A stretch of DNA of 64,000 bases from positions 13,621,001 through 13,685,000 of the forward strand of contig NC_037090.1 of assembly GCF_002994745.2 (NCBI RefSeq), read 5' to 3'. Positions 29,881-64,000 of the stretch are shown here, piece by piece. The position numbers and the translations under genes are program-made. Within the stretch, counting starts at the first letter, position 1. The number at the start of each line of letters is the position of its first letter. Source of the DNA: Rosa chinensis. Its lineage: Eukaryota > Streptophyta > Magnoliopsida > Rosales > Rosaceae. The notes beneath the pieces are model-generated. The model saw only the letters and a list, made by a program, of their open reading frames with translations. It did not search any database and had not been told where the DNA came from.

Positions 29881-30141
29881 GGCTAAGCTAATCAAGCAAA
29901 GAGATGAGTATAATGTGGTGAAGAAGATGAAGATATACAACGACAGCAAAGGAAGGCTATATTTTGCGGTGAAGATTGAAGAAGATATAAAAGAAATGAA
30001 CCCTCAATTGAGCTATTTATAGGAATCTAAAGTCATACAGTTTTGACATTTTTTTCAAATGACCATATGGCCCTTCTTGTCAACGTTGAAGGAACCCAAA
30101 AGGTAAATGCAATATTGGGTTTTCAAGGGGAATAAAAGAGT

Positions 30142-30228
30142 TTGACCCTTATTCTTTGACTTGACTTGGCGATGTCCCTTTGACCTTTTGTAAAGAACAA
30201 AAGGGATTGGATATTCCTTCTCCACGTG
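30142..30228 (-). promoter_or_regulatory. W-box cluster and G-box of ZAT duplicate A
   Basis: TTGAC at 30142, 30156, 30161 and 30180, and CACGTG at 30223. The duplicate at 31936-32022 is the same. Confidence 0.6.
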
Positions 30229-30553
30229 TTAAATTGCACTCGCTTGTAAGCCTTGCATTTTATAGAAAACAGTTTCTCAAAATGATACCGAACGGGCCCT
30301 AAAAGTCTCTGGCAATCTTTCTGATGACTTATAAGATCTCCAACAACTTCTCTGGGATCTTTGGCAACCTCCCGCCTGTGACCGGATTTTGCCGTCTGGT
30401 GACTAGAGTCCGGCGAAGTCTCCAATGACTTTGTAATTATTTGGAAGGTAAACTTGTCTTTTTACATTTAAATGGGATAAGTGGGCACACAAATCTTTTA
30501 GTGGAGTAAATGGACATTTGTTAGACCCAAATTGAGTAAATGGTCAAGAGCCC

Positions 30554-30907
30554 TTTTAATTTTTCAAGAAGGTGCTACGGGAGATGCAATCAAGGTGGTG
30601 GAGGGTGAAAATCCTTCCTCTACCTCTACCTCTAGCACCATTTAATTTTAGTCTTGATCGCATGAACTTGGTGCTATGTTGATTTTTTTAGTCTACTTTG
30701 GGGTTTTAGCCTTTAGGTTTGTGTTTGTGAGCTCATTATAAAAAAGTGGGTGTATTGGAAGTGTGTTGGGCAGCTTGTTCTTTGTTAGAATAGGTTGATT
30801 GGTTTACTGATCTAAAAAACGACTCTTTCTGACAAATTTTAAGGGTGTGTCATTTCTTGCATTGTTTGTTGAACTTCATTAATGGATGACCTCTTTTGAT
30901 TAAAAAA
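30554..30907 (+). mobile_element. LINE-like 3' end fragment (second copy)
   Basis: Same as 28760-29113, carried along by the tandem duplication, so not an independent insertion. Confidence 0.45.
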
Positions 30908-31158
30908 AAAATTAATTATTCGAATTTATTCAAACGAAAAATGTAAAAGGAGAGAAGGGGTGCTTATAAAAAATTAATAAATCAATAGAAGTATAATATA
31001 CTGTGGATGCGAATAAGTTGTAACAAAAGAATAATTAAGTTAATTAAAAAGAATTGGTCAGTACATCAAATGCCATGTTACATAAAATAATCTAAGACCT
31101 AATAAAAGAATTAATACAACAGCGATCGTATATATCAAAGAATTAAGAAACCAGAGTA

Positions 31159-31674
31159 TCAAAAAACTTTTGGAGCCATGTTTCCAAACAAGACCTTCAG
31201 GTCATTTTCCAAAGGCGTCAAGTTCAAGTCCAATTCCAAACACATCACCCTCTTACTATTCGACCTCATCAGCACAGGAATCTTCGAAGCAACAACAGCC
31301 GCAGAAGGAACCGAAGAAGAAAACCCGGCGTTCATCATTCTGTGCCTTCGCATATGACCACCCAAAGCTTGCCCCAAACTGAACTCCATCCCGCATATGG
31401 AGCACTCGTGCTTTTTCGGCTTGCTTTGCGCCAATTTGGTCTCACTTTTCGAGTCCTGATCGCTGCCCGGTAACGTTCTCGGCTTCTTGTGACTCGCTCT
31501 GTGGCCACCAAGAGCTTGGAACGATGAGAATTGGCGGTTGCAGGTTTTGCACTCGTACACATCGTTTGGCGACGATGAACACTTTTTGAACTTGGTCTCT
31601 AATCTACAAGAGAGGAGCATCAGACATTTCGCCATGTCTAAACCCATAACCTCTTGATTTTTCATTGTCTTCAT
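31159..31674 (-). CDS. ZAT11-like C2H2 zinc-finger repressor, duplicate B
   Basis: Encodes the same 171-residue protein as 29365-29880, with the same TATA box (31808-31815), W-boxes and G-box, because the entire 1794-bp unit is repeated. Two QALGGH fingers and a [13 protein letters not shown] motif. If both copies are real, the locus makes a double dose of one repressor. Since no base differs between the units, the duplication is either very recent or an assembly error. Confidence 0.9.
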
Positions 31675-32059
31675 GGCTAAGCTAATCAAGCAAAGAGATG
31701 AGTATAATGTGGTGAAGAAGATGAAGATATACAACGACAGCAAAGGAAGGCTATATTTTGCGGTGAAGATTGAAGAAGATATAAAAGAAATGAACCCTCA
31801 ATTGAGCTATTTATAGGAATCTAAAGTCATACAGTTTTGACATTTTTTTCAAATGACCATATGGCCCTTCTTGTCAACGTTGAAGGAACCCAAAAGGTAA
31901 ATGCAATATTGGGTTTTCAAGGGGAATAAAAGAGTTTGACCCTTATTCTTTGACTTGACTTGGCGATGTCCCTTTGACCTTTTGTAAAGAACAAAAGGGA
32001 TTGGATATTCCTTCTCCACGTGTTAAATTGCACTCGCTTGTAAGCCTTGCATTTTATAG

Positions 32060-32721
32060 AGATAAGAATTTAGACCGTGTGAGTAGTTGGCCAGACTGAT
32101 TCTAAAGGAAGGTATAAAGAAAGGACCTGTAAAGCAGACGTGGCCAGTCGTGGGTGGCGACTGAGCTAGGAAGCTCCTCCGCAGCTTCGAAGCTTTTTCA
32201 AGGAGGAGTTCCAAAAGTGCAGTCTGAAAGCACTTTTTGTTTAGGATTTAGGGTTTAAGGTCCCACCGTAGATGTCTCAAGTCTTAACAATGAAGAATGA
32301 ATAGTCGGTCTTTTAACCAACAAAATTCTAGAGAAGAATAGGCAGCTGGGTGCACCTAAACGGGTTTTCATTCTTTGTCCCCATTCTAGTGCGGATTACT
32401 ATGCTGCAACGTAAACACAGTTGAGCAACTTCCCGGTGCTTATCGACATTGTTGCTTAATCAGTTGGAGAAGAAGAGTTGGATAAACTTGGGAATGTTAT
32501 TCATTTTTTCATGGAAATTAACTAAAAGATATTACACTGCTGTCTTCTTAACTTCTAAGGAATAAATGGGAACACGATTACACGATGCCCGGTCATCGAT
32601 CGCTGTGTAAATGAGCAGCACGGAATAGATGGACTTGTTCTCATTGCTCATCAGTTGATGAGCTTGTTTTGACAAATGAACAGCTAGCACACAACATGTA
32701 GTGTAAATTCTTGACTAGCAA
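32060..32721. other. Intergenic and 3' UTR of the kinesin gene
   Basis: No gene seen. The part next to 32721 must include the kinesin 3' UTR. No clear polyadenylation signal picked. Confidence 0.5.
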
Positions 32722-45592: not shown

Positions 45593-47900
45593 TGATAGGA
45601 GCATTTTAATGTGATATTTTAATAGTTAATTCCTCACATTTTGCTTAGTTATTCCTTAACGAATCGATTTTTAACTTAATTTCTATTTTTAGGTACATTG
45701 GAGTAGATGAAGAAGAAATGAGTGTTACGTCCATAATTACCTAGAAATGATGGAGAAGAATGAAAATGCACTAAAAAGTCAACCTTGAATATTTTCTTAC
45801 TCCAGCTAGGAGAATCAGAGCCAAGCAAGGAAGAAGGAGCGGCCACCTGACCAAATGAACTCGAAATGAGCTGAAACTCTCCAGATCCATTCTAGACACC
45901 CAAATGATCATTTCTTATGAAGAGTACCAGAGAAAAATATGAGTGGAAGGCCTTCAAACAATCAGCCCAATTTTCTACAGAAGCAAAACCGGAAAACTGG
46001 ACCTGTAAGAGGTCCAGCAGCATTTCCGGCCCAACCACATGGAATAAAGCTCTGACAATTTTTGAGGATGATCTACACTCATAGTGGAACATTTTTTATG
46101 AAGAAGTCGAAGGCTCATTCTGAAGTTTTGATGGAGAAATAATTGAAGGAATAAAGGGGAAGAAACTGACCTGAAAACAGCTCAACACCACATATTTATG
46201 TTTCCCACCCATATGAAGAAAGCATTTCTTTTTCCTTGGATACAATTTTTCTACCCTAAAAGATCATCATCACTTCCACATTTCTTCACCTTCATGCTTT
46301 GCTTTCATCATTACCTCATCTTTTACATATTTTACAAACCACTCTCATACTCCACTTTCATTATTTTTCTTCATCTCATCATTTCTCTCTTCTTTTTCTT
46401 CCCTATTTAAACACCTTCTCCTCTCACTCTCAATCACCAATTCCTTCATCCATTCCATCTTCTTTGTCTCTCCATTTCCTTTCCATTTTCCTCTACCAAT
46501 TCCTTCATCCATTCCATCTTCTTTGTCTCTCCATTTCCTTTCCATTTTCCCAAATATTCCTTCATCCATTCCATCTTCTTTGTCTCTCCATTTCCTTTCC
46601 ATTTTCCCACACAAATTCCTTCATCCATCTCATCTTCTTTGTCTCTCCATTTCCTTTCCATTTTTCTCTCCATTCTCTAGTTTTAAATTTCTGCATTTTT
46701 AAGCAAAGAGAAGAAGAGAAGAAGAAGCCATGAAGCCTCCTAGCCGTCATCATCCACCTTGTGCCGTGATAGTGAAGTCTTGCTTTAAAGATTCAAGATC
46801 AACGTCTCAAGCTCTTCATCATCCACTCCCTTCATGGTGTAATTCTATCTTTTTCCTTGTAATTTCTTTTGGTTTTCTTTGTTTAGATTTGTAGAACTAT
46901 GAATTCTAGTTAACAAATAATGTTAAGGGCAAAGTTTAAAGCCCGTTTATATGTTTTGGGATAAAGTTGTGATTTCTATATGTTGATTTTTATGTTGCTT
47001 ATGTGGGTTTGTTTAATTAAATTTGCATGATAGAAAACTTTTGTATTTTAATCTTATGTGGTTGCAAACACTTAGGGTTTTGATATAATTGGTGCTAGGT
47101 TTAAGAACATGAAATCGACTTTTCGTTTTGTGTAACTTGAATCAAAAGTAGTAAAGGTTCTGGACAAGAATCGAATTTAATTGAAGAGGATTGCAATTAG
47201 GTGGACTTTTCCATAACTAAGTTGTACACTTGAGTTGATAGCCTTTCTCTATGTCTAATGCGTTGAACATGTCATGATTGACTAGCTTTCTAGGGCTTGA
47301 TTGCATGTTTGATAGGATTAATCTAGGTGCTTTCGCTTAGGTTAATTAGCATTGAAAAGTAAAATATGGGAAATCATTTGCTTTCGAATGTTTCACATGA
47401 TCAACTCCTCTCTCATGACTTAGATGAACAATATTAGGGTTTGAATCAATTTTAATCATATGTTTCGGTTTTTGATCTTTGTTCTCTCATTCCATTCGTA
47501 TTTTTATGTTTTTGCATTTTAATTTGTTAACTTAGTTTTATTTTCGAAAATCCAAAAACAAAACCCCCCTTTTATTTGTGTTTACTTGTATATATTTATT
47601 CTTTATTTTATTTTTGTAAATAATACTTTATTATTTTAATTCTTTATTTGTTTATACAATTGTATATATTTATATTCTTTATTTTATTTTTGTAAATAAT
47701 ACTTTATTATTTTAATTCTTTATTTGTTTATACAATTGTATATATTTATATTCTTTATTTTATTTTTGTAAATAATACTTTTCTTTATTTGTTTCACAAT
47801 TACAAGTGTACCCTCAATCCCCGGAATAGAACGATCCCTATTTGCTTATACTACTAACGATATTTCAGGGTTAAATTGCGCGCTTCCCAAAGGCGCATCA
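45593..47900 (+). repeat. LTR a (2308 bp, subfamily A)
   Basis: Starts TGATAGGAGC and ends GGCGCATCA. Closest to the solo LTR at 11966. TATA variant TATTTAAA at 46404-46411. Four units of a 57-60 bp pyrimidine-rich minisatellite at 46436-46665 follow the TATA box. It differs in its U3 part from LTR b, so the two are not the LTR pair of one insertion. Confidence 0.9.
46436..46665 (+). repeat. Pyrimidine-rich minisatellite in LTR a (4 units)
   Basis: Units of 57-60 bp containing TTCCTTCATCCATTCCATCT. Copy number differs between LTRs: one in the solo LTR, two in LTRs d and e, four or five here and in b and c. Long Ser/Phe/His-rich frames on one strand and Lys/Glu-rich ones on the other are products of this repeat. 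Confidence 0.92.
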
Positions 47901-47911
47901 ATTTTTGAATT
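47901..47911 (+). other. 11-bp remnant of an internal domain between LTRs a and b
   Basis: ATTTTTGAATT. The first seven bases are the start of the internal domain (as after LTR b) and the last four or five are its end (as before LTR c, GGGGGAATT). All between is deleted, with a G as shared base. Confidence 0.8.
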
Positions 47912-50152
47912 TGATAGGAGCATTTTAATGCGGTATTTTAATAGTTAATTCCTCACATTTTTCTTAGTTAATTCCTTAACGAATCGATTTTTAACTCAAT
48001 TTCTATTTTTTAGGTACATTGGAGTAGATGATGATGAAATGAGCTGTTTGGCCCTAAAATGAGCATTTTGGCCTGAGAAAGCGTGTCTTGGATAAATTGA
48101 GCCAATGAGAAAGCGAGCTAGACAAGAAATGAGGAGTGGCAGACTAACCATCCGAACTTCAAATGAGTTGAAACTTTCCAGATTCATTCTAGAAAGTCCA
48201 AGGATCATTTCTTATGAAGAGTGCCAGAGCAAACTATGAGTGGAAGGCCTTCAAACAATCAGCCCAATTTTCTACAGAAGAAAAACTGGAAAACTGGACC
48301 TGTAAGAGGTCCAGCAGCATTTTCGGCCCAACCACATGGCAATACATTCTGAAATTTTACCACAGTAATCTACATTCATGGGGGAATATTTGTTATGAAG
48401 AAGTCTTGGGTAGAATCTAAACTTTCGGTGGAGATAAAATTGAAGTAAATGAGTAGGAAATCCATCATCATCATCACCCAAAAACATTCCATGTTTTAGG
48501 GTGTAATCATCATGTTTTCTCCATCATTTCTCACACTAATCCACCATCATCATCACCCAAAACATTCCATGTTTTAGGGTGTAATCATCATGTTTTCTCC
48601 ATCATTTCTCACACTAATCCACCATCATCATCACCCAAAAACATTCCATGTTTTAGGGTGTAATCATCATGTTTTCTCCATCATTACTCACACTAATTTA
48701 CTCCATCTTTTCCAATTTCACTCTTCTTTCTCTTCCCTATATAAACACCTTCTCCTCTCACTCTAAAACACATTCCTTCATCCATTTCATCTCCTTGTCT
48801 CACCATTTCCTTTCCATTTTCCCAAACATTCCTTCATCCATTTCATCTCCTTGTCTCACCATTTCCTCTCCATTTTCCTTTGTCACCATTTCCTATACCA
48901 ATTCCTTCATCCATTCCATCTTCTTTGTCTCTCCATTTCCTTTCCATTTTCCCACACAATCTTCCTTCATCCATCTCATCTTCTTTGTCTCTCCATTTCC
49001 TTTCCATTTTTCTTTCCATTCTCTAGTTGCAAAGTTCTGCATTTTCAAGCAAGGAGAGGAAGAAGAAGAAGGAGCCGTGAAGATCATATCCTCCATCATC
49101 CATCTTGAAGGCTTGCTTCCAAGATTCAAGATCCAACCATCTAGCTCTCCATCTCCATCTCCACTCACGGTGTAATTCGTTCCTTTTCCTTGTAACCTTT
49201 TTGGTTTCCTTGTTTGATTTCGTATGAACTTGTTTCTAGTTAACAATAATGTTTAGGGCAAAGTTTAAGCCCAATTTCTATGTTTAAATAAAGTTTTCGA
49301 ATTCTATAATTGTGATTCTAAGTTGCTTATGTGAGTTTGTTCGATTAAATTTGCTTTACAGAAAACTTTTATATGTTTATCTTATTTGGGTCGACACTTT
49401 TAGGATTTGCATGTAATTGGTGCTAGGTTTAAGAACATGAAATCGACTTTTCGTTTTGTGTAACTTGAATCAAAAGTAGTAAAGGTTCTGGACAAGAATC
49501 GAATTTAATTGAAGAGGATTACAATTAGGTGGACTTTTCCATAACTAAGTTGTACACTTGAGTTGATAGCCTTTCTCTATGTGTAATGCGTTGAACATGT
49601 CATGATTGACTAGCTTTCTAGGGCTTGATTGCATGTTTGATATGATTAATCTAGGTGCTTTCGCTTAGGTTAATTAGCATTGAAAAGTAAAATATGGGTA
49701 ATCATTTGCTTTCGAATGTTTCACATGATCAACTTCTCTCTCATGACTTGGAAGAACAATTATAGGGTTTGAATCGAATTTGATTACATGGAATTGATTT
49801 TGATCTTTGTTCCTTGCGTTCCACCCTTGTATATATGTTTTTACGTTTTCTTTATTTTATTTATTTTAATTTTAATTTTAAGAATCCTAATCCCCCCCCT
49901 TATTTGTGTTTACTTTTATATATTTATTCTTTATTTTATTTTTGTAAATAATACTTTATTATTTTAATTCTTTATTTGTTTATACAGTTGTATATATTTA
50001 TATTCTTTATTTTATTTTTGTAAATAATACTTTTCTTTATTTGTTACACAATTACAGGTGTACCCTCAATCCCCGGAATAGAACGATCCCTATTTGCTTA
50101 TACTACTAACGATATTTCAGGGTTAAATTATGCGCTTGCTTCAAGCGCATCA
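47912..50152 (+). repeat. LTR b (2241 bp, subfamily B)
   Basis: TG...CA ends. TATA box TATATAAA at 48738-48745. Three tandem units of about 78 bp (48466-48700, with CATTCCATGTTTTAGGGTG) upstream of the TATA box and about five pyrimidine-rich minisatellite units (48770-49012) downstream. Confidence 0.92.
48466..48700 (+). repeat. U3 tandem repeats of LTR b (3 x about 78 bp)
   Basis: Each unit has CACCCAAAAACATTCCATG and GGTGTAATCATCATG. They lie just upstream of the TATA box, where retroviral and plant LTR enhancers sit. LTR c has the same three units (53349-53585). Confidence 0.9.
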
Positions 50153-50157
50153 ATTTT

Positions 50158-50175
50158 TGGCGCCGTTGCCGGGGA
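50158..50175 (+). promoter_or_regulatory. Primer binding site, tRNA-Asp
   Basis: TGGCGCCGTTGCCGGGGA, complementary over 18 bases to the 3' end of plant tRNA-Asp including its CCA, five bases after the LTR end. Confidence 0.9.
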
Positions 50176-52780
50176 TTGAAAAATCACTTGCTAAATTGTA
50201 TCATTTATTGTATATATATTTGTTGTATATAAATTGTTTGAAACTTAGTTTAAATTAACTAGGACTTTTTTTTATATTATTGAACACGAATTTTAATTGT
50301 ACGTTGTAAATTGAGAGGAATAGGTGAAGTCTCTTTTGTTAATATTGGCCTAAACCCCTTATTCGTACCTAGCTCAGGTCCCTTAAGGTTGAGGGCGGCC
50401 TTTATTAACACTTGTTGAACTGTCTTCACATTTATGACCTTTCTCATCTTAGTAAGAAAGCCTATGTGAAATGGTGTCTAGGAAGGGGACAACGTTCATG
50501 ACGGGTTTTTGAATCCAGAAGTGCTTGCAAATGGGCATAAACCACAATGTGGGAGTAGCTCATGCCAAAATGGATTTTTCCTCTCGTGTTCGTCCTCCCC
50601 CACCTGGCCATTTCAGTAAGGTTGCCCAAACGATTTGAAAGGGAGTTTGTGTCTAGGCGACTATACTTGGGCCGCACGTCCACTTGATTTACCTCTTGGA
50701 ATTTGATTCGATATCAATAATGTTTATAATAAAAGAAATACTTGTGAATACTCTATACGTCTAAATTATTTTGTTGTTTCACACTTTAAACTTGTAAAAA
50801 TACTTTTCACGTTTTATACTCACTTGAGTACTTAACTTGTGTCTTATGTACAATATACTTGTTAATTATACTTGTAGTTTGTAATTAATAGTTATACTTG
50901 TTTTTATTTTGTATTTCTTTGTTAATTATAGTTACTAACTTTATTAAATGGAGGTACAAGTCTAGGCTGAAAGACTATAAACATTAAGCGCTGCTTGGGA
51001 GGCAACCCAATTCCAACGTAGCTGTGGAGGAGTCGTCAACGCAGATTTGCTTTCTCTTTCCCTTTTACTTCTCCAATTTTCCTTTGTTTTAGTAGTCATT
51101 TTCGTAAATTTCATCCCTATATGCTTAAGTGTCTCATTGCATGCTAATAATTGATTACATTGAGGACAATGCAATATTTAAGTGTGGGGGAAGGGATTTA
51201 CACTTTTATCTTGAGTCATATATATTGAAAAATACAAAAAAAAAAATCAAAAAATGTCAAAAATTTAAAAAAAATTTGGTTACTTTTGTTTTTGTTTTTG
51301 AGTCTTAGGATGCTCCTAACGTCTAGGATGAACATGTCTCCGAATTCATGGCTGAAGGTTTTCACAATCAAAATAGGACTTAATTGAATTCTGTGGTTAA
51401 TCGACATTGTGATGCTTGTATGAAGATTTGAGATAGGATTGTAACTTGGTTCATTAAGCATGCTAGGATTAAGTCTGATTCATTTGACCCAAGTGAGCTG
51501 TTGAGCTAAAATACTTTCTTTTTGAGTGCTTACTGATAATTTCAGAATTTCATGGCTGTATTTGCAAAACCTCATCTTTCTTTGAAAATCCAATGATCAT
51601 GTGCCATAGATTTTAATGGACTAGAGAGTACTAGAACTCGGCTGTTGTGACTGTCAAAACTTATATGCCATAATATGCACTGATCCTGGATAGGAGAGAA
51701 GGCATTAGGGTAACCACCATAGCCAAACAAGCATGTGTCCCCAATTGTGCCCGTCGTGGGACTCCTTAGAATGAACCCCTTTGAGCCTACATTGAAAACC
51801 TTTGTTTCATCACCCTCACTACCCTACCATGAGCTTAGTACAGGATATCTCTACCCTTGTGCTAGGGACTTAGTAGAGCATGACATAGTATGTAGGGGTG
51901 ACGATGAAAGACAAGTGTGGGGTGGGGAAATCCAAGAAAAAAAAAAATTTGCCTTGAAAAAAAAAAAAAAAAAGAAAGAAAGAAAGCGGCAAAAGAGAAG
52001 AAAAATTGAAAAGAAAACTCTTGGGAAAATGTTGAAGCGTGGTTTTGGACTTGCAAATTTGTAGAAGGCTCAAAGTTGAAAATTATTCCTTTGTCCATTC
52101 CCATGTTAGTTAGAGTGAAGGTTTGGCCCAAAACAATGATATTTGGTCTACAAAAATGATGACATAAGGTGGTCCTTATATGCTCTGCTAGGTCCTTAGG
52201 ATTTTTTGTATCCTTAATCTTCATTTCAAAAACCCTAGCTTAGCCCCATTAAAACCTGTTTTAAGTGCTGACTTGATCCTTGAGATGGGCAATCTTTGGT
52301 TAGTGGAGTCAGTTACGCAGTCGAGCTTATGGTTTAGGTCCATTTGTGCACTTAGTTATTTCATGAGGTCTTTAAAAATTCTTCACAAAATGTGTTTATT
52401 GATGAAATATGCAAGCTGTTTGTTGCCTTACAATTTGTTCTCTTGCATATACTTGAGTGTGAAGCTTTTAAGCATAGCCATTTCTGAGAGAAAAATCGAG
52501 AGTATGCCCTGTGAGTTTGGATTGGACTTGTTCGAAACATGCTATCATTCACTGTATAACTTAAGTTCTCCATATCTTGCTTAGTCATATGAATGTCACA
52601 GGTTTATTAACCATGGAATTATCTTTGTGATTTTGATTAAGTGTTTAACGTGAAAGCCATGAGTTTGGAGTCTCTGAGACAACAGTTAGGAGCAATAGAG
52701 TCATTTACTTGCTTTTTGTCAAGTCTTTGTTCTGTTTTGGATTTTTTTTTTTTTGTTTTGCTAAGGGACTAGCAAAAGCT

Positions 52781-52795
52781 AAGTGTGGGGGAATT
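52781..52795 (+). promoter_or_regulatory. Polypurine tract of the LARD
   Basis: AAGTGTGGGGGAATT directly before LTR c. Confidence 0.85.
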
Positions 52796-55018
52796 TGATA
52801 GGAGCATTTTAATGCGGTATTTTAATAGTTAATTCCTCACATTTTTCTTAGTTAATTCCTTAACGAATCGATTTTTAACTCAATTTCTATTTTTTAGGTA
52901 CATTGGAGTAGATGATGATGAAATGAGCTGTTTGGCCCTAAAATGAGCATTTTGGCCTGAGAAAGCGTGTCTTGGATAAATTGAGCCAATGAGAAAGCGA
53001 GCTAGACAAGAAATGAGGAGTGGCAGACTAACCATTCGAACTTCAAATGAGTTGAAACTTTCCAGATTCATTCTAGAAAGTCCAAGGATCATTTCTTATG
53101 AAGAGTGCCAGAGCAAACTATGAGTGGAACGCCTTCAAACAATCAGCCCAATTTTCTACAGAAGAAAAACTGGAAAACTGGACCTGTAAGAGGTCCAGCA
53201 GCATTTCCGGCCCAACCACATGGCAATACATTCTGAAATTTTACCACAGTAATCTACATTCATGGGGGAATATTTGTTATGAAGAAGTCTTGGGTAGAAT
53301 CTAAACTTTCGGTGGAGATAAAATTGAAGTAAATGAGTAGGAAATCCATCATCATCATCACCCAAAAACATTCCATGTTTTAGGGTGTAATCATCATGTT
53401 TTCTCCATCATTTCTCACACTAATCCACCATCATCATCACCCAAAACATTCCATGTTTTAGGGTGTAATCATCATGTTTTCTCCATCATTTCTCACACTA
53501 ATCCACCATCATCATCACCCAAAAACATTCCATGTTTTAGGGTGTAATCATCATGTTTTCTCCATCATTACTCACACTAATTTACTCCATCTTTTCCAAT
53601 TTCACTCTTCTTTCTCTTCCCTATATAAACACCTTCTCCTCTCACTCTAAAACACATTCCTTCATCCATTTCATCTCCTTGTCTCACCATTTCCTTTCCA
53701 TTTTCCCAAACATTCCTTCATCCATTTCATCTCCTTGTCTCACCATTTCCTTTCCATTTTCCCAAACATTCCTTCATCCATTTCATCTCCTTGTCTCACC
53801 ATTTCCTTTCCATTTTCCTTAGTCACCAATTCCTTCATTCATTTCATCTTCTTTGTCTCTCCATTTCCTTTCCATTTTCCTTCTCCATTCTCTAGTTGCA
53901 AAGTTCTGCATTTTCAAGCAAGGAGAGGAAGAAGAAGAAGGAGCCGTGAAGATCATATCCTCCATCATCCATCTTGAAGGCTTGCTTCCAAGATTCAAGA
54001 TCCAACCATCTAGCTCTCCATCTCCATCTCCACTCACGGTGTAATTCGTTCCTTTTCCTTGTAACCTTTTTGGTTTCCTTGTTTGATTTCGTATGAACTT
54101 GTTTCTAGTTAACAATAATGTTTAGGGCAAAGTTTAAGCCCAATTTCTATGTTTAAATAAAGTTTTCGAATTCTATAATTGTGATTCTAAGTTGCTTATG
54201 TGAGTTTGTTCGATTAAATTTGCTTTACAGAAAACTTTTATATGTTTATCTTATTTGGGTCGACACTTATAGGATTTGCATGTAATTGGTGCTAGGTTTA
54301 AGAACATGAAATCGACTTTTCGTTTTGTGTAACTTGAATCAAAAGTAGTAAAGGTTCTGGACAAGAATCGAATTTAATTGAAGAGGATTGCAATTAGGTG
54401 AACTTATTCATACTAAGTTGTACACTTGAGTTGATAGCCTTTCTCTATGTCTAATGCGTTGAACATGTCATGATTGACTAGCTTTCTAGGGCTTGATTGC
54501 ATGTTTGATAGGATTAATCTAGGTGCTTTCGCTTAGGTTAATTAGCATTGAAAAGTAAAATATGGGTAATCATTTGCTTTCGAATGTTTCACATGATCAA
54601 CTCCTCTCTCATGACTTGGAAGAACAATTATAGGGTTTGAATCGAATTTGATTACATGGAATTGATTTTGATCTTTGTTCCTTGCGTTCCACCCTTGTAT
54701 ATATGTTTTTACGTTTTCTTTATTTTATTTATTTTAATTTTAATTTTAAGAATCCTAATCCCCCCTTATTTGTGTTTACTTGTATATATTTATTCTTTAT
54801 TTTATTTTTGTAAATAATACTTTATTATTTTAATTCTTTATTTGTTTATACAATTGTCTATATTTATATTCTTTATTTTATTTTTGTAAATAATACTTTT
54901 GTTTATTTGTTTCACAATTACAAGTGTACCCTCAATCCCCGGATAGAACGATCCCTATTTGCTTATACTACTAACTATATTTTCAGGGTTAAATTATGCG
55001 CTTGCTTCAAGCGCATCA
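52796..55018 (+). repeat. LTR c (2223 bp, subfamily B)
   Basis: Near copy of LTR b, TATA box at 53622-53629, U3 repeats at 53349-53585, minisatellite at 53652-53885 with a slightly different unit order. Followed by ATTTTTGGCGC, the first 11 bases of another internal domain, which then breaks off at 55029. Confidence 0.92.
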
Positions 55019-55220: not shown

Positions 55221-55620
55221 AATCTTGCTCTGCTAAGGAGGTCCTTAACTTAGCTTAAGGAACAGATTTTCATATTTTGACTATTTTTCGATAACATATT
55301 CACATCTTAATCATTCAGTTTTTAGGTATATATGAGTAGATCATCTATGCAGATTTTCAGTCAAATTGATGATCATTAAGGCATCTAAAACTGCAATTTA
55401 CATGAACAAACTGAATCTGTCCAACCTGAACCATTCGTGTAAATTGCAGTTTTGGATGCCTTAACGATCATCAATTTGACTGAAAATTTGCAGAAATGAT
55501 CTACTCATACATACCTAAAAAATGAACGGTTAACATATGAATATGCGATAAAAAATGGTCAAAATATGGAAATTCGTTCCTTAAACTAAATTAAGGACCT
55601 CCTTAGAATAGAAGGATTGT
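55221..55620. mobile_element. 400-bp foldback MITE, second copy
   Basis: Arms of about 160 bp (55221-55385 and about 55455-55620) are inverted copies. Same size and loop (AACTGAATCTGTCCAACCTG) as the element at 29-428, there in the opposite orientation. TA- and CA-rich microsatellites lie on both sides. Confidence 0.85.
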
Positions 55621-55956: not shown

Positions 55957-57622
55957 TGATAGGAGCATTTTAATGCGACGTTTTAACTGCATTTCCCTAC
56001 ATTTCTTACGTTATTTCCTTATTAAAATCCTGTTTAGGAAAGTTTCCATTCTTTGATTGGGAAAGTTCCTATTTGTAGAAAGTTTATATTTTTGTAGTTT
56101 CTATTTATCATTTTTAGTAAGTTGCCATTTTTCATTTTAGGTAAGTTTCTATTTTTCTTATTAGTTTCTATTTTTAGGACCTCCAAGCAAGTGGAAAATC
56201 TTGAGGAGGAAAATCAAAGTTGCAAGCAAGTGGAAAATCTTGAGGAGGAAAATCAAAGTTGCAACCAAGTGGAAAATCTTGAGGAGGAAAATCAATTCAA
56301 GTTGAACAAGTGATAAACAAGTGGGAAGATATTTTTTACAAATTTGTCTAACATATCTAGCCCTTCATTTATGTTCATCTCCACCCTCCATTCATCATTT
56401 TTTGGGCTATAAATACACTTCTCCTCTCACTCTCAAAATACCAATTCCTTCATCCATTCCATCTTCTTTGTCTCTCCATTTCCTTTCCATTTTCCTAAAC
56501 CAATTCCTTCATCCATCTCATCTTCTTTGTCTCTCCATTTCCTTTCCATTTTCCTTCTCCATTCTCTAGTTACAAAGTTCTGCATTTTCAAGCAAGGAGA
56601 GGAAGAAGAAGAAGGAGCCGTGAAGATCATATCCTCCATCATCCACCTTGAAGGCTTGCTTCCAAGATTCAAGATCCAACCATCTAGCTCTCTATCTCCA
56701 TCTCCACTCACGGTGTAATTCGTTCCTTTTCCTTGTAACCTTTTTGGTTTCCTTATTTGATTTCGTATGAACTTGTTTCTAGTTAACAATAATGTTTAGG
56801 GCAAAGTTTAAGCCCAATTTCTATGTTTAAATAAAGTTTTCGAATTCTATAATTGTGATTCTAAGTTGCTTATGTGAGTTTGTTCGATTAAATTTGCTTT
56901 ACAGAAAACTTTTATATGTTTATCTTATTTGGGTCGACACTTATAGGATTTGCATGTAATTGGTGCTAGGTTTAAGAACATGAAATCGACTTTTCGTTTT
57001 GTGTAACTTGAATCAAAAGTAGTAAAGGTTCTGGACAAGAATCGAATTTAATTGAAGAGGATTGCAATTAGGTGGACTTTTCCATAACTAAGTTGTACAC
57101 TTGAGTTGATAGCCTTTCTCTATGTCTAATGCGTTGAACATGTCATGATTGACTAGCTTTCTAGGGCTTGATTGCATGTTTGATAGGATTAATCTAGGTG
57201 CTTTCGCTTAGGTTAATTAGCATTGAAAAGTAAAATATGGGAAATCATTTGCTTTCGAATGTTTCACATGATCAACTCCTCTCTCATGACTTGGAAGAAC
57301 AATTATAGGGTTTGAATCGAATTTGATTACATGGAATTGATTTTGATCTTTGTTCCTTGCGTTCCACCCTTGTATATATGTTTTTACGTTTTTTTTAGAT
57401 TTTATTTATTTTAATTTTAATTTTAAGAATCCTAATCGCCCCCTTATTTGTGTTTACTTGTATATATTTATATTCTTTATTTTATTTTTGTAAATAATAC
57501 TTTTCTTTATTTGTTTCACAATTACAAGTGTACCCTCAATCCCCGGATAGAACGATCTCTACTTACTTATACTATTAACGACATTTCAGGGTTAAATTGC
57601 GCGCTTGCTTTTGAGCGCGTCA
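55957..57622 (+). repeat. LTR d (1666 bp, subfamily C)
   Basis: TG...CA ends. The first 450 bp are unlike LTRs a-c beyond the first 20 or so bases; from about 56415 on it is almost the same as LTR b. TATA box TATAAATA at 56408-56415, two minisatellite units at 56440-56556. Confidence 0.92.
56185..56301 (+). repeat. 39-bp x 3 tandem repeat in LTR d
   Basis: Three units of 39 bp with GTGGAAAATCTTGAGGAGGA. An open frame through them repeats QVENLEEEN, but it starts and ends in LTR sequence and is not thought to be a gene. The same three units are in LTR e (63100-63216). Confidence 0.9.
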
Positions 57623-57627
57623 ATTTT

Positions 57628-57645
57628 TGGCGCCGTTGCCGGGGA
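57628..57645 (+). promoter_or_regulatory. Primer binding site, tRNA-Asp
   Basis: Same 18 bases as at 50158-50175, five bases after LTR d. Confidence 0.9.
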
Positions 57646-58892
57646 TTGAAAAATCACTTGCTAAATTGTGTCATTTATTGTATATATTTGTTGTATATAA
57701 ATTGTTTAAAACTTAGTTTAAATTTTTATTTATATTATTGAACACGAATTTTAATTGTAGGTTGTTAATTGAGAGGAATAGGTGAAGTCTCTTTTGTTAA
57801 TATTGGCCTAAACCCCTTATTGGTACCTAGCTCAGGTCCCTTAAGGTTGAGGGCGGCCTTTATTAACACTTGTTGAACTGTCTTCACACTTATGAACTTT
57901 TTCATCTTAGTAAGTATAGCCTATGTGGAATGGTGTCTAGGAAGGGGACAACGTTCATGACGGGTTTTTGAATCCAGAAGTGCTTGCAAATGGGCCTAAA
58001 CCACTATGTGGGAGTAGCTCATGCCAAAATGGATTTTTCCTCTCGTGTTCGTCCTCCCCCACCTGGCCATTTCAGTAAGGTTGCCCAAACGATTTGAAAG
58101 GGAGTTTGTGTCTAGGCGACTATACTTGGGCCGCACGTTCACTTGATTTACCGCTTGGAATTTGATTCGATATCAATAATGTTTATAATAAAAGAAATAC
58201 TTGTGAATACTCTATACGTGTAAATTATTTTGTTGTTTCACACTTTAAACTTGTAAAAATACTTTTCACTTTTTTTTTACTCACTTGAGTACTTAACTTG
58301 TGTCTTATGTACAATATACTTGTTAATTTTACTTGTAGTTTGTAATTAATAGTTATACTTGTTTTTATTTTGTATTTCTTTGTTAATTATAGTTACTAAT
58401 TTATTTAATGTAGGTACCGTCTGGCTGCAAGACGTAAAATACAAGCGCTACTTGGGAGGCAACCCAATTCAGAATATAATCAGATTTGCTTTCTCTTTCC
58501 CTATTTCTTTTTATTTTTCAATTTTTCTCTATTGTTTTTATTTTAGGATTTGTTTTCGTAAATGTCTTCTATCTATGCTTACTTATTTCATTGCATGCTT
58601 TTAATTGATTACATTGAAGATAATGCAATATTTAAGTGTGGGGGAAGAGATTTATATAATTGTCTTTCATTTTGAGTCCTATAAATATAATTGTCTTTCA
58701 TTTTGAGTCCTATAAATATTTTTGTCTTTCATTTGAGTCCTATATATTTTATATTTGTCTTTTATTTTTTGAGTCCTTTATATAAAAATATATATATATA
58801 TATAAAAAAAAACACTGCATTTATTCAGTCTTATTAAATTCAGCTATTTACAAAAAAAAAAATAATAATAATAATAATAAAAATACTCTATA

Positions 58893-59552
58893 CTAAGCTA
58901 TGTCTGCATTTCCGTAGGAGTTGAGGCTGAGCTCAAGGGAAATGCGAGAGCCACCGCCATAACCGCTACCTCCCTCGGAAGTAGTCTTCATGTTGCCAAA
59001 GATGTCCTCACCATGCATGGGGAATAGTGGAAGGGTTTCAATCTCCTGGTGATATTCTCCTCGTTGTTCCATGATCGATCCATCAACACCATAGCCGACA
59101 CGTGACCCAAAATTTAGATCAATGGATCTGTCAGTACTAGTAGAACCAGTGGAACCAAAGTTTAGATCAATGGACCTACCATCATCAGTAAAACTAGTGG
59201 ATCCAAAATTGAGATCGAGAGAGCCACCAACCCGAACGTTCCGAAATTCCTTCAACTTCTGCCTCTCACGAGCCTTGAGGTTCTGGAACCAAAAGAAGAC
59301 GTTCTTGTCCTCGATCTGCCCATATTGTTTCAGATGAAGGCAGATCTCTTGAATCTGCTCTGGAGTTGGGTACTTAAAACCCTTATCATAGTAAAGGCCC
59401 TTGAGGATTCTTAGTTGAGGCGGTGTGGGAGCCCACCGGTTACTACTCCCGGCTGCTTGGATGCTTCCTCCCTCCTCGGTTGGTTGCTGGGCTTGTAATT
59501 CCATTTGTTGCTGGGTTTGTAACTCCATTAGTTGCAGAGTTCGTGGTTCCAT
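58893..59552 (-). CDS. WUSCHEL-like homeobox (WOX) transcription factor, inside an LTR element
   Basis: 219 residues without intron. Start [12 protein letters not shown] chosen at 59552 because a TATA box (59663-59670) puts the cap site near 59635, making the longer frame to 59822 impossible. Gln-rich N-terminus with a repeated MELQ(T/A)QQ; homeodomain at about 37-101 with the WOX-type long loops and helix 3 [16 protein letters not shown] (Leu where WUS has His); three copies of DLNFGS (113-118, 129-134, 145-150), each EAR-like; the WUS box TLPLFPMH (173-180), which marks the WUS clade; and a C-terminal EAR motif LELSL (206-210). Known relatives hold stem-cell fate and recruit TOPLESS. No stop or shift is seen. 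It lies antisense to the host element, between its primer site and polypurine tract. Confidence 0.9.
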
Positions 59553-59662
59553 GTTGATGAAGAAAGGATTTGAGTTTCGAAAGAAAGGCTGAAGGGTTGA
59601 GAGAGAAAGGCTGGAACTCGGAAGAATTTTCTTTTGGAGTGAACAGTCGCTCAGAATGCACC

Positions 59663-59670
59663 TATTTATA
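59663..59670 (-). promoter_or_regulatory. TATA box of the WOX gene
   Basis: TATAAATA on the minus strand, 111 bp upstream of the start codon. Confidence 0.7.
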
Positions 59671-59775
59671 GAACGAGTGAGCAGATCTCCACCGTTGGAT
59701 GGACGATCTCTGAGATTAAATCTACGCGTTGGATTAAAGTCACCCGAAAACACGGAAAAGCTGTTGGCGCGTGGA

Positions 59776-59975
59776 GGACACGTGGGGGAACCAAACGAAT
59801 CTCGAGGAGCTGTGACAGCCAAGCTACAGCCGAAAGCAGGTTTAATTGCCGTGAATCAAGGAAAAGAAAGGACGCGTGGGGGAATCAAACGAATCTCGAG
59901 GATCCGTGACAGACAAGCTATAGCCGAAAGCATGCCATAAATCCAGGAAAAGAAATGAATATTTACACGTGGGGG
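59776..59975 (-). promoter_or_regulatory. Tandem G-box units upstream of the WOX gene
   Basis: A 94-97 bp unit (GGACACGTGGGGG ... CAAACGAATCTCGAGGA ... GCCGAAAGCA ... GGAAAAGAAA) is present twice (59776-59869 and 59870-59963), followed by a third ACACGTGGGGG. CACGTG cores at 59779-59784 and 59966-59971, with a CGCGTG variant in unit 2. Possible bZIP/bHLH sites. Confidence 0.65.
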
Positions 59976-60154
59976 AGTTTCTTGGGCCGTGAACTGTCAT
60001 AACTCTTCTCCTTCCCGGAGAAGCTTTGTTAAAACCGTGTGTCTGTTGAGATTTCTACCCTATTTTGTGCTTTACATATACATCCTTTTTTGTCTCCTCC
60101 AGATTTTACTAAGGTTTGTCTAAGCGTGCAGTTTCAAATTCCTTCTACTTCTTC

Positions 60155-60685
60155 ATGGCTCGAACCAAGGTTACCCCTCGCAGGGGCGTCAATCAACGCC
60201 GTGTTCTCTCTTTGGAAGAAGAAGGTCGTCAAGCGGCCACTAGAGCTGGACTTACTCGTCCATGGGACCATCGTCCTATCCGTGAGCGTACCCGCAGTCC
60301 CCCTCCTCTGCCTCGTCGCTCTCCGAGACTGCATCCCTGAGAGTCTTCTTCCTCACCAGCTGCTCGTGCTCCTCGGCCTATGGCCACCCTGGAAAGCTTG
60401 TCGGATTCGATTGATGATTTGCGTTCCTCTCTCCGCGATGGTATTATGGTGACAGATTGGAGAGTCAATTGCATGATCGATTACATCTCTGAGATGAACT
60501 GCTCTTTGATCCGCTGTCACACTGCAATAAACAAGCTTGCTCAGGAAGTCAATAACTTGCAGAGTTATCCTCCTGGGTTTCCTCGCAAGGACACTACTGC
60601 ATCACACCATGAGAACTCTCCTCCGGAGGCTGAAACCAGCAAAAGGGCTGCCACTCGCCGGCATATCGCTCCTCCAAAGGAGTAA
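60155..60685 (+). pseudogene. Unknown reading frame in the LTR element, one in-frame stop
   Basis: From ATG 60155 (MARTKVTPRRGVNQRR) the frame is open for 177 codons to TAA at 60685, except for one TGA at 60338-60340. The first part is basic and Pro/Ser/Arg-rich; the second (MATLESLSDSIDDLRSSL, then NKLAQEVNNLQS) has heptad-like Leu spacing, so a short coiled coil is possible. I do not recognise a family. The stop codon is followed within 5 bases by the conserved block that also begins at 50945 in the LARD, so this may be the remains of the last gene of the parent retrotransposon (a gag-like or envelope-position frame) that the LARD has lost. Confidence 0.5.
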
Positions 60686-62856
60686 ATGGAGGTACAAGTC
60701 TAGGCTGAAAGACTTTAAACATTAAGCGCTGCATGGGAGGCAACCCATTTCAACTGTAGCTGTGGAGGAGACATCAAACGCAGATTTGCTTTCTTGAACT
60801 CTTCCTTCTATTTTATTTTCTTAAATTTTAAGTTGTTTTAGGTTTCGTTGTGTTCATTTTCTCTTCTATGCTTGATTTATGCTTTGCATGATTTATATTT
60901 GTTTATACATTGAGGACAATGCATGAATTAAGTATGGGGGAAGGGTTATTGTTTTATTGTGTTTTTAGTAGTTAGTATATAAAGAAAGAAAAAAAAAATA
61001 GTTGATGTTGGATTGTGTTTTTAATTGATGTTGTGATACACTAAGGTATATTGGATTAAACATAGTCTTGAAAAAGGGTAGCTGTTTCAGTCCCATTGCA
61101 CATCGAGACTCCCAGTTCCCGTACCTAAGTGTTGAAATTAAATTAAATTGTTGAAAAAGAAAAAAAAAATTACTTTTGTTTTTGTTTTTGAGTCTTAGGA
61201 TGCCCTTTCAACTGTCTAGGATGATTCTATATCTCTGAAATCATGATTAAAAGAGGATCACAAAATTGAGATGATTTTTAAAATGGTATTCTTTGGTTAG
61301 TTGAGATATATGAAAAATGCATGCATGTGTAGTGGATATGGATTTCGTAACCTTGGTACAGAATATGAGCATGTTAGGATGAGTTTTGATTCATAAAAGC
61401 CCATGTGAGATATTTGAGCCATGTCCCTTTTTCTTGGAGTGATAATTGAAAAATATATTCTTAATTTCTTGGCGAAGTTTTGATGATCTCATTACTCTTT
61501 CATTTGATTGATTGCTTGCCATAGATTAAGTTTGATGGACTAGAGAATGCTAGAATTCGCTCTTGTGCTTGTTGAGACGTTTGTCAATACATGGCCCTGA
61601 TTCTGGAAGGGATAGAGGCAACCTAGGAATTATCACCATTGCCAAATAAGCATGTGTCCCTATTTGTGCCCGTCATGGGACTCCCTTAGATAAACCCCTT
61701 TGAGCTTACATTAAGCCTTTTCTTTCATCACCCTTAAATCCTTAACCCTGAACCTTAGTATAGCTACACTCCTACCCTTTGTTCTAAAAACTTAGTGGAG
61801 CTATATTTTGGGACTTTACTTGAGGATTTGGCATTGAGAAAGAAGATTGAGAAGAGGTGAAAGTTCAAGTGTGGGGGTAGACTTGTCCATGAGAAAAAAA
61901 AATTATGTGAAAGCCGTGAAAAAGAAATGAAAAAGAAAAAAAAATGTGTACGGCTAGAAAATTAAAAGAAAGAAAAGAAAAAATGTATATGGATTTTAGT
62001 CCTCCATACTTGGTGAGTTTGGAGTTTGTTTTGAATTGAAGACCCACTATTGGAAAATTTGGTCTTTGTCCAATTCACTAGTTCGAGGGAAGTTTAGAGT
62101 GAAGATTGGGCCCAACATGAAGACATTTGGCCCTTTCATAAAACCTCTATGGGATGTGACGTTTTGATATATCTTGGTGGATTTCTAGAAGTCTCTACAT
62201 CTACATGAGCTCTGCTAGGTTTTTAGGACACTTTGTGAAATTCCTTACCTTTCGTTTCTTAAAACCTTGAGCCTTGGCCCCATTACAACCCTAAATAAGA
62301 CCTTCTTGATCCTTAAGATGGGACAGCCTTTGATTTGTGGAGATGAGTTACAAGAGTTGAACCTATGGCTTGGGTCCATCCGTGCAAGTAATTGATATCC
62401 TTCATGAGATCTTTTCAAAAAAAAAAAAATTATATTCACAAAGTGCTTTTCGTTTCTTATATATGTGAGCTATTTGATTGCCTCAAAATATTTTCTCTCA
62501 CATATAATTGAGTGATTATAAGCTTTTAAGCATTGTCTTGAATTCTGAGAGAAGAAAGAGTGGATATACCTTGTGAGGATATGAATCATACTTGTTCGAA
62601 GCATGCTTAACAAAAACCATCACCATTGTCACAACCAAGTCCTACTTGTGTATGTGTGGATTATATGTTTTAATTAACTCTTGAATATCTACATATTGAT
62701 TCTTGGTTGAGTGCTAATCTTGATGTTGTGAAAGTAGGAGATTTCTGTGACAAAAAGTTGAAGGGCAATAGAGTCATTGTTTTTGTAGAGTCTTTAATTT
62801 TCGTTGAGTCTTAGTGTGTGTCTTAGTGTGATTTTGCTAAGGGACTAGCAAAAGCT
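60686..62856 (+). other. Right internal domain of the WOX-carrying element, non-coding
   Basis: Matches 50945-52780 of the LARD in order with substitutions and indels. Contains the hairpins at 60733-60748 and 60908-60921 and purine runs at 60930-60945 and 61867-61880. No gene. Confidence 0.7.
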
Positions 62857-62871
62857 AAGTGTGGGGGAATT
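62857..62871 (+). promoter_or_regulatory. Polypurine tract of the WOX-carrying element
   Basis: AAGTGTGGGGGAATT directly before LTR e, same as 52781-52795. Confidence 0.85.
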
Positions 62872-64000
62872 TGATAGGAGCATTTTAATGCGACGTTTTA
62901 ACTACATTTCCCTACATTTCTTACGTTATTTCCTTATTAAAATCCTGTTTAGGAAAGTTTCCATTCTTTGATTGGGAAAGTTCCTATTTGTAGAAAGTTT
63001 ATATTTTTGTAGTTTCTATTTATCATTTTTAGTAAGTTGCCATTTTTCATTTTAGGTAAGTTTCTATTTTTCTTATTAGTTTCTATTTTTAGGACCTCCA
63101 AGCAAGTGGAAAATCTTGAGGAGGAAAATCAAAGTTGCAAGCAAGTGGAAAATCTTGAGGAGGAAAATCAAAGTTGCAACCAAGTGGAAAATCTTGAGGA
63201 GGAAAATCAATTCAAGTTGAACAAGTGATAAACAAGTGGGAAGATATTTTTTACAAATTTGTCTAACATATCTAGCCCTTCATTTATGTTCATCTCCACC
63301 CTCCATTCATCATTTTTTGGGCTATAAATACACTTCTCCTCTCACTCTCAAAATACCAATTCCTTCATCCATTCCATCTTCTTTGTCTCTCCATTTCCTT
63401 TCCATTTTCCTAAACCAATTCCTTCATCCATCTCATCTTCTTTGTCTCTCCATTTTCCTTCTCCATTCTCTAGTTGCAAAGTTCTGCATTTTCAAGCAAG
63501 GAGAGGAAGAAGAAGAAGGAGCCGTGAAGATCATATCCTCCATCATCCACCTTGAAGGCTTGCTTCCAAGATTCAAGATCCAACCATCTAGCTCTCTATC
63601 TCCATCTCCACTCACGGTGTAATTCGTTCCTTTTCCTTGTAACCTTTTTGGTTTCCTTATTTGATTTCGTATGAACTTGTTTCTAGTTAACAATAATGTT
63701 TAGGGCAAAGTTTAACCCAATTTCTATGTTTAAATAAAGTTTTCGAATTCTATAATTGTGATTCTAAGTTGCTTATGTGAGTTTGTTCGATTAAATTTGC
63801 TTTACAGAAAACTTTTATATGTTTATCTTATTTGGGTCGACACTTATAGGATTTGCATGTAATTGGTGCTAGGTTTAAGAACATGAAATCGACTTTTCGT
63901 TTTGTGTAACTTGAATCAAAAGTAGTAAAGGTTCTGGACAAGAATCGAATTTAATTGAAGAGGATTGCAATTAGGTGGACTTTTCCATAACTAAGTTGTA
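62872..64000 (+). repeat. LTR e (partial; runs off the window)
   Basis: Near copy of LTR d: same U3, same three 39-bp units, TATA box at 63323-63330. It lacks part of one minisatellite unit near 63455 and has one G fewer in AAAGTTTAACCC (near 63715). About 540 bp of its end lie outside the window. Confidence 0.92.

Follow-up and report, generated by a model that had tools for sequence, protein, structure and literature searches.

A WUSCHEL-derived antisense gene carried in hundreds of copies by an LTR retrotransposon family of rose

How does a WUSCHEL-like homeobox (WOX) gene come to lie, open and in antisense, between two near-identical LTRs? The question arises at the end of a 64,000-nucleotide stretch of Rosa chinensis DNA (contig NC_037090.1, positions 13,621,001 to 13,685,000; hereafter the window), and it meets a published puzzle. 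A 2024 survey counted 381 WOX genes in R. chinensis, 226 of them on chromosome 2, found zero collinear genes within rose and left the expansion unexplained, hypothesising whole-genome duplication (PMC11405225). No word beginning with transpos- or LTR occurs in the main text of that survey.

A first-pass annotation of the window, made from its letters alone, had placed the gene in a recently inserted LTR element with a primer binding site and a polypurine tract. The parts of this element, and a neighbouring relative, are:

55957..57622, plus strand: 5' LTR (LTR d), 1666 bp, TG...CA
57628..57644, plus strand: primer binding site TGGCGCCGTTGCCGGGG, 5 bases past LTR d
57645..58654, plus strand: untranslated leader, about 90% match to the sister element
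60155..60685, plus strand: sense accessory ORF, broken in the window copy by a single in-frame stop
62857..62871, plus strand: polypurine tract-like AAGTGTGGGGGAATT
62872..64000, plus strand: 3' LTR (LTR e), running past the window end
47912..55018, plus strand: sister LTR element without WOX, its LTRs 98.3% identical (K2P 0.0169)

The hallmarks of an LTR retrotransposon are thus present, namely paired direct TG...CA LTRs with a primer binding site and a polypurine tract at their borders. LTRs d and e are 99.8% identical over 1129 aligned bases (2 substitutions and 2 indels), and their K2P of 0.0018 bears out a young insertion. The primer binding site is presumably that of tRNA-Asp, and the GTGTGGGGGAATT tract directly adjoins LTR e. 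The same polypurine-tract context is repeated in copies L033 and L034, the former a full related copy with a 5-bp TSD (ATTTG/ATTTG). The sister element had been described as the same interior minus the gene; this holds for a stretch of about 1.2 kb covering leader and LTR end (90%), for one module of 0.25 kb (80%) and for a large part of the LTR, and fails for the rest of the interior. In 16 of the 20 copies sampled, the sense accessory ORF is open over 176 aa; it gave no Pfam or NCBIfam match above cut-off. Between LTRs d and e we found no ORF longer than 140 aa besides the WOX frame; three other plus-strand ORFs of the element had no Pfam match, and the relative P0121 had none above cut-off. 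Neither a gag-pol coding region nor a reverse transcriptase was found in the window element. Because no gag-pol reading frame lies between the LTRs, the family appears to be non-autonomous; a gag-pol-bearing autonomous partner was not found.

The antisense gene, hereafter retro-WUS, and its upstream region contain the following features, those within the protein being placed by hand:

58893..59552, minus strand: intron-free ORF of retro-WUS (WOX), 219 aa, in antisense relative to the element
59259..59438, minus strand: homeodomain, 60 residues RW...ERQ, the span taken for selection tests
59109..59219, minus strand: linker with three [LI]DLNF motifs, not in host WUS
59013..59036, minus strand: WUS box TLPLFPMH
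58923..58937, minus strand: C-terminal EAR motif LELSL (in SLELSLN)
58820..58825, minus strand: AATAAA hexamer resembling a poly(A) signal, 3' of the WOX stop codon, read by eye
59663..59670, minus strand: TATA box of the antisense promoter, TATTTATA, common to old copies
59779..59784: G-box CACGTG
59966..59971: G-box CACGTG

As first annotated, the window protein has the features of WUS-clade WOX proteins: an atypical homeodomain (Pfam E 6.7e-11; WUSCHEL structure 6ry3 E 6.1e-22), a TL.LFP WUS box and a C-terminal EAR motif. It resembles host WUS in its N-terminus as well, and its homeodomain retains the equivalents of base-reading R38, Q89, N90 and R94 and of the anchor W39. An AlphaFold model gave pLDDT values of 76–87 at residues 41–100, with a whole-model mean of 56. 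Across 36 alignment rows, T173, L174, L176 and P178 of the WUS box and L206, E207, L208 and L210 of the EAR motif are invariant.

Is this a single accident or a regular part of the element? The genome search that the first-pass annotation proposed returned 691 candidate copies, of which 150 were scored; these show 89–100% protein identity, and 13 of them contain a stop codon. When copies were instead picked by a non-coding stretch of the element, WOX was present in 19 of 20 loci, with a full-length ORF in 17, and the single WOX-free locus was interrupted by another LTR insertion. Of 6402 candidate LTR matches the best 40 were scored, and all 10 same-strand LTR pairs among these enclosed an antisense WOX. 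In the sample picked by the ORF itself, both 1.5-kb flanks were collinear with the element at 25 of 30 loci, and at least one flank was at the other 5. The gene has thus multiplied with the element, as had been suspected. The copies combine alleles in mosaic fashion; blocks of young copies were defined post hoc, with 2 of the 150 copies, on unplaced contigs, left out there. By these comparisons, retro-WUS is spread in hundreds of copies as a regular antisense part of a rose LTR family.

Where did the gene come from? Host WUS lies at about 11.71 Mb of G000:C2 and has three exons. Comparing it with the intronless copies, as had been advised, we found that both introns are gone in all seven old retrocopies. 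The intron 2 junction is exact in all seven; the intron 1 junction is exact in L036, and the other six lack 11 codons across it. All seven alignments stop at one common position inside the last WUS codons. Aligned in this way, retro-WUS descends from spliced WUS mRNA. Since both introns are missing and the endpoint is shared, a single mRNA-derived origin is likely, and it would predate the split between R. chinensis and R. rugosa. Because the captured part ends within the last WUS codons, simple poly(A)-primed insertion seems unlikely; no poly(A) tail was seen at the 3' junction of the seven old copies. Although the window insertion is young, retro-WUS itself is an old lineage common to the family, so the capture was neither recent nor a one-off. 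Nor was the gene captured whole, as had been proposed. Sequences transduced by LTR elements are often fragments, and here the introns and last codons are lost, as is the middle of the protein in young copies. Relative to host WUS, retro-WUS has no introns, ends in other residues, differs at 17 of 60 homeodomain positions and sits in an LTR element; on the aligned sequences, it has lost the middle of WUS and gained [LI]DLNF repeats, and it keeps a homeodomain of WUS type together with the WUS box and the EAR motif. The carrier of the oldest copies was not found: the flanks of L036–L041 had no blastn match to the window element, L042 matched in the leader alone with no LTR seen in the surrounding 8 kb, and no LTR was found for another old copy, L073.

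The gene had also been thought to bring along its own TATA and G-box promoter. The TATA box and two CACGTG motifs are indeed present, but the promoter is not the one that precedes host WUS. The TATA/GGTGGAGAT promoter is common to the window copy, the intermediate copy L064 and four of the seven old copies, and its motifs were not found in the 1.5 kb that precede host WUS. Capture of the WUS promoter was rejected because the upstream region resembles old retro-WUS copies, not the 1.5 kb ahead of the host gene. We also considered self-binding of the protein through enriched TGAA tandem sites. The preferred WUS-HD motif in tandem, TGAATGAA, does not occur in exact form in the element, and in the window it is rarer than chance; TGAA tandem sites showed no enrichment, and this idea was dropped.

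Our favoured explanation, which we consider quite probable as a whole, is that the window holds a young member of an apparently non-autonomous rose LTR family, in which retro-WUS serves as a regular antisense accessory gene maintained through steps set out below. Alternatively, retro-WUS could be a passive passenger, captured by accident, amplified without function from few source elements and still intact because its copies are young. Several observations fit such a passenger: (i) 40 scored copies are 98–100% alike across the non-coding stretch; (ii) 359 of 364 clade I–V WOX genes are almost unexpressed in rooting cuttings (PMC11405225); and (iii) in 30 young copies, the alternative bases are close to neutral counts, both those private to one copy (34 non-synonymous, 17 synonymous, 2 stop) and those that copies share (13 non-synonymous, 6 synonymous), and the intact ORFs of young copies may reflect youth alone. 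The ORF-first sample, its copies having been picked by ORF similarity, was not used for claims about selection, and copies were then resampled via the non-coding stretch and via the LTR. Against a passenger, all 17 full-length ORFs of the unbiased set carry DLNF motifs, two or three each; the WUS box is exactly TLPLFPMH in 16 of the 17, and LELSL is likewise present in 16. Intact ORFs also occur in more diverged lineages such as L064, L069 and L070, picked partly for open frames. Moreover, five of ten captured-captured pairs show homeodomain omega of 0.18–0.43 (p 0.005–0.03), robust to ts/tv and CpG weighting. The other five, with omega of 0.45–0.93 and no significant constraint, fit a passenger instead, and in this comparison pairs share branches, recombination blurs pairs and deep copies were chosen partly for open frames. 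Eight of the ten pairs were retested, together with the host-window pair; uncorrected NG86 omegas ranged from 0 to 1.05, the maximum coming from a pair with 5 changes. On balance, we regard the passenger account as possible but doubtful.

Domestication, with selection acting on host fitness and not on the element, would agree with the expression of the five remaining clade I–V members in rooting cuttings (PMC11405225) and with the retained DNA-contact residues, but it fits poorly with hundreds of recent, dispersed and mosaic copies, and we hold it improbable. A resident WOX gene caught between two unrelated LTR insertions, the outcome that the first-pass annotation had named as fatal to its model, or a segmental or whole-genome duplication, is scarcely credible. 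Whole-genome duplication has been hypothesised, but the absence of collinear genes within rose speaks against it. LTR d is closer to LTR e than to the LTRs of the sister element (97.6–97.7% over about 1.06 kb), the same element flanks recur around dispersed copies, and the intron-bearing WUS is located elsewhere. Two separate insertions and duplication are thus largely contradicted.

What, then, would keep an antisense accessory gene in the family? In the explanation that we favour, an ancestor of the element family would have captured WUS once and brought it under the control of an antisense promoter already present in the element. The protein would be selected through the propagation of the element itself, for which a related autonomous element would supply gag-pol. 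The antisense transcript would encode a putative nuclear repressor that helps the element, either by repressing host genes in meristem cells leading to the germ line or, by analogy with HBZ in HTLV, by damping the element's sense transcription. A bolder version, which we advance tentatively and think unlikely to hold in full, would make the captured stem-cell master gene the element's own regulator: refitted with DLNF motifs, which would act as extra EAR-like repressor motifs, retro-WUS would bind WUS sites in the shoot meristem and repress host differentiation or silencing genes, and the element would multiply in germ-line founders. Animal retroviruses with captured growth regulators offer a parallel. 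If this were true, a mobile element would have partial control of WUS biology in rose and perhaps of somatic traits.

Other LTR elements carry antisense genes. According to two reports, the aORFs of Retand, Grande and RIRE2 are present in antisense in most element copies, that of Grande has its own promoter and a nuclear protein, and the encoded proteins, TRP28 or others, have no similar genes outside elements (PMC11963269, PMC7264820). Retro-WUS is likewise an antisense gene inside an LTR element but, unlike these aORFs, it can be recognised as a host master regulator whose donor is traceable. The TRP28 domain of the Retand lineage is absent: for the antisense protein, as for three relatives, Pfam gives the homeodomain alone. 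Gene transduction, as in maize Bs1, likewise captures host gene sequence; it is described as usually in sense and in one or few copies (PMC7264820), in contrast to retro-WUS, which is antisense, near complete and present in hundreds of copies. HBZ of HTLV-1 and APH-2 of HTLV-2 are antisense nuclear regulators in retroelements (as cited in PMC11963269), and the likeness to retro-WUS is one of analogy alone, with no homology claimed. Retro-WUS lets one follow a developmental master gene of the host on its way to a standing antisense place in a retrotransposon family. One genome holds the donor, the junction, the intermediates and hundreds of descendants, and because these can be traced, the long-standing question of the origin and role of antisense accessory genes in plant LTR elements becomes testable.

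The family also offers a concrete mechanism for the 381 published WOX genes, hundreds of which it probably accounts for; gene-family surveys would otherwise keep treating such copies as ordinary genes. Consistent with this, the motifs quoted for RcWOX clades V and IV (PMC11405225) match those of retro-WUS proteins such as P0012, a likeness drawn by motif and not gene by gene.

The element reads, from its left LTR, primer-binding site, antisense WOX gene, sense ORF, polypurine tract and LTR:

55957–57622, LTR d
58893–59552, antisense to the element, WOX ORF
60155–60685, sense, second ORF, broken in this copy
62872 to window end, LTR e (partial)

Between the LTRs, the WOX frame is the sole frame above 140 aa, and three other plus-strand ORFs had no Pfam match. 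In 16 of the 20 copies sampled, the sense ORF runs open for 176 aa; it gave five matches, an organism being named for Rosa alone (P0121, an intact 176-aa relative with 18 members), and this relative had no Pfam match above cut-off. Across 1129 aligned bases, 2 substitutions and 2 indels separate LTR d from LTR e (K2P 0.0018). At LTR-dating rates of 1.3e-8 or 7e-9 substitutions per site per year, insertion took place ~68 or 127 thousand years ago (Poisson 95% 8–246 or 15–457), in agreement with the first-pass annotation, which had read the near-identical LTRs as a recent insertion. Could d and e belong to separate insertions, the alternative raised there? LTR d is 97.6–97.7% identical (~1.06 kb) to the LTRs of the WOX-less sister element at 47912–55018 (pair K2P 0.0169); because d is closer to e than to these, d and e form one insertion. 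Among four further 10-kb stretches, L033 is a complete copy (LTRs of 1831 and 1828 bp, K2P 0.0094, target-site duplication ATTTG on either side); the other three are L034, with a single clear LTR start, L035, a head-on nest, and the diverged L032. The window also holds a 1.8-kb tandem pair (28468–32060, 99.94% identity), an inverted repeat left of the element (55285–55555, 122-nt arms, 87% complementary) and two more LTR-like copies of the same superfamily (11966–14032 and 45593–47907, 87–89% alike over most of their length), with no obvious paired partner within the window.

Is WOX multiplied with the element, as had been proposed? We searched the R. chinensis genome (515 Mb, 53 contigs; window at C3:13621001–13685000) and chose copies in three ways: (i) by WOX protein, keeping the best 150 of 691 candidates (E ≤5.5e-117, identity 89–100%), 13 of which have an in-frame stop; at 30 fetched loci, both 1.5-kb flanks were collinear with the element in 25 and at least one flank in the other 5; (ii) by a non-coding query outside the WOX ORF (59960–60700, covering most of the sense ORF), keeping the best 40 of 513 candidates (98–100% identity); WOX was present at 19 of 20 loci, the window counted in, and its ORF was full-length in 17, truncated in L048 and L057, while in L047 another LTR sequence interrupts just upstream of the ORF; and (iii) by LTR, the best 40 of 6402 candidates giving 10 same-strand pairs spaced 6.8–8.9 kb. 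WOX lay inside all 10 pairs (3 already listed, 7 by fetched stretches), always antisense to the LTRs; among the 7 fetched, the ORF reaches its usual end in 6 and stops before the EAR motif in L079. Since the three routes agree, WOX belongs to the element family. WOX-free related elements exist, such as the sister, which falls outside the best 40 LTR matches.

What was the donor? Using Fragaria WUS as query (827 candidates, 132 scored), we found the resident three-exon WUS gene (C2:11711808–11713110, 299 aa; contained in locus L043) and seven old intronless retrocopies, L036–L042, on C1, C2, C3, C4, C5 and C7, 89–100% identical to host exons in aligned pieces. All seven lack both introns, with an exact junction at intron 2 throughout; at intron 1 the junction is exact in L036, the other six missing 11 codons across it. 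The suggested intron comparison did reveal an intron-bearing resident gene; the captured one is intronless and mRNA-derived. All seven alignments stop at one WUS position, 2782–2784 of L043, inside the last codons, and that of the window copy at 2781; this common breakpoint suggests that retro-WUS derives from one capture event. In four of the seven old copies (L036, L037, L038 and L040), in the window and in the diverged copy L064 (where TTAAATA replaces TATAAATA), the gene lies behind a promoter that contains GGTGGAGAT and TATAAATA. Neither motif occurs in the 1.5 kb upstream of host WUS, which contradicts the earlier proposal that the gene was captured with its own promoter; the antisense promoter would have been present in the element before capture. 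In its 5′ leader, host WUS has ~340 extra bases (L043 ~926–1265) between two ACCTCTCTGTCAACTT copies, a 16-bp direct repeat, with a T-run adjoining. L036 and L037 read through this site uninterrupted, the other five old retrocopies not spanning it, and the resident stem-cell gene probably acquired the extra bases later, as a SINE-like insertion.

In a protein tree of 65 rows, five host WUS proteins from Rosaceae make up a clade of their own (100/98). R. rugosa rows group with R. chinensis rows in several clades, six of them forming the sister (100/99 each) of the window's 30-row clade; thus retro-WUS is older than the split of these species. Among the matches listed (120 of 185), Rosa clusters came from R. 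chinensis (47; 315 members), R. rugosa (16; 51) and ENA contigs (3; 11). The consulted portions of PMC11405225 report 381 RcWOX genes, against 170 for R. multiflora and 105 for R. rugosa, with 364 in Rosa-only clades and 226 on chromosome 2; whole-genome duplication is suggested there, with zero collinear genes and a call for further evidence. The clade V and IV motifs quoted in that text match retro-WUS family proteins at motif level, not gene by gene. Among the papers listed, mostly from outside the subscription literature, titles and abstract openings contained no link of rose WOX genes to a retrotransposon, and the main text of the R. chinensis genome paper (PMC6786968) has no word starting WUSCHEL or homeobox. 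Vicient's papers (PMC11963269, PMC7264820), in the excerpts consulted, describe antisense ORFs without the word WUSCHEL, and present transduction as mostly sense and low in copy number, in contrast to the antisense gene and 691 candidates here.

Retro-WUS differs from host WUS at 17 of 60 homeodomain residues and retains the equivalents of R38, W39, Q89, N90 and R94, residues with a base-reading or arm-anchoring role in the crystal structure (PMC7203112, as excerpted). AlphaFold gave confident homeodomain helices (block pLDDT 76–87), the rest being low-confidence (model mean 56). [LIF]DLN[LF] motifs number zero in host WUS and three in the window copy; all 17 full-length ORFs of the non-coding set have two or three. 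DLNF-type motifs can recruit TPL-type co-repressors. TLPLFPMH and LELSL are each intact in 16 of the 17 (exceptions L059 and L056). Is the homeodomain under constraint? We tested synonymous and non-synonymous counts against neutral expectation in 10 captured–captured pairs, WIN being the window copy. Constraint was significant in five (WIN-L064, WIN-L069, WIN-L068, WIN-L065, L071-L072; omega 0.18–0.43, p 0.005–0.03 over four mutation weightings) and not in WIN-L070, TYPE2-WIN and WIN-L072 (0.45–0.93), L064-L072 (0.82) or L064-L065 (0.51). Because the pairs have branches in common, mosaics disrupt the tree and deep copies were chosen partly for open frames, these tests support constraint without proving it. 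Omega was 0.35–0.41 for the host–window homeodomain and 0.47–0.56 for the whole ORF of young copies against host WUS. Private differences of 30 young copies (34 non-synonymous, 17 synonymous, 2 stop) appear near neutral, as expected after insertion. Synonymous divergence of the window copy from the host is 0.93 in the homeodomain versus 0.12 in the C-terminus, for which gene conversion, chimerism and uneven mutation are candidates; the ratio is ~5–9x in young L001, L010, L019, L025 and L030 and 1.5–4x in the seven old copies.

What does the gene do? We consider it quite probable that this is a rose LTR family with antisense retro-WUS as an accessory gene. The analyses above show its anatomy, mRNA origin, spread and conserved motifs, with partial constraint. 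Most likely, the singly captured gene would be expressed from an antisense transcript as a nuclear repressor that benefits the element, with gag-pol supplied in trans. Against this mechanism stand (i) the absence of TGAATGAA from the element; (ii) the near-silence of 359 of the 364 genes in rooting cuttings, one tissue series, in the consulted portions of PMC11405225; (iii) the unconstrained homeodomain pairs; and (iv) the carrier of the oldest copies, not found by blastn of L036–L041 flanks, which gave no match to the window element, nor within 8 kb of L042, which holds no LTR there but has the element leader at 91% in antisense arrangement.

In the 20 copies of the non-coding set, whose query stretch is ≥98% alike, two N-terminus types (A, B), two homeodomain types (1, 2) and a linker that has or lacks PYSSS are variously combined. 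All four N-type and linker combinations occur (A-with L049, A-without L044, B-with L046, B-without L050), a pattern suggestive of recombination among copies, repeated deletion being the alternative. Young copies (ORF not 684/681 nt) lie, 124 of 125, in four blocks delimited post hoc and amounting to 18.8% of the chromosomes (2 of 150 copies, on unplaced contigs, dropped):

C1, 59.8–68.5 Mb, young-copy block
C2, 33.9–88.6 Mb, young-copy block
C3, 0.8–15.9 Mb, young-copy block
C7, 2.8–19.2 Mb, young-copy block

A passage of PMC6786968 describes 'Old Blush' as an interspecific cross, so these blocks may mark ancestry from the one parent in which the burst took place. C4–C6 carry 1 young copy against ~56 expected, and the blocks contain 17 of 23 copies with a 684/681-nt ORF as well as 38 of the 40 copies scored with the non-coding query.
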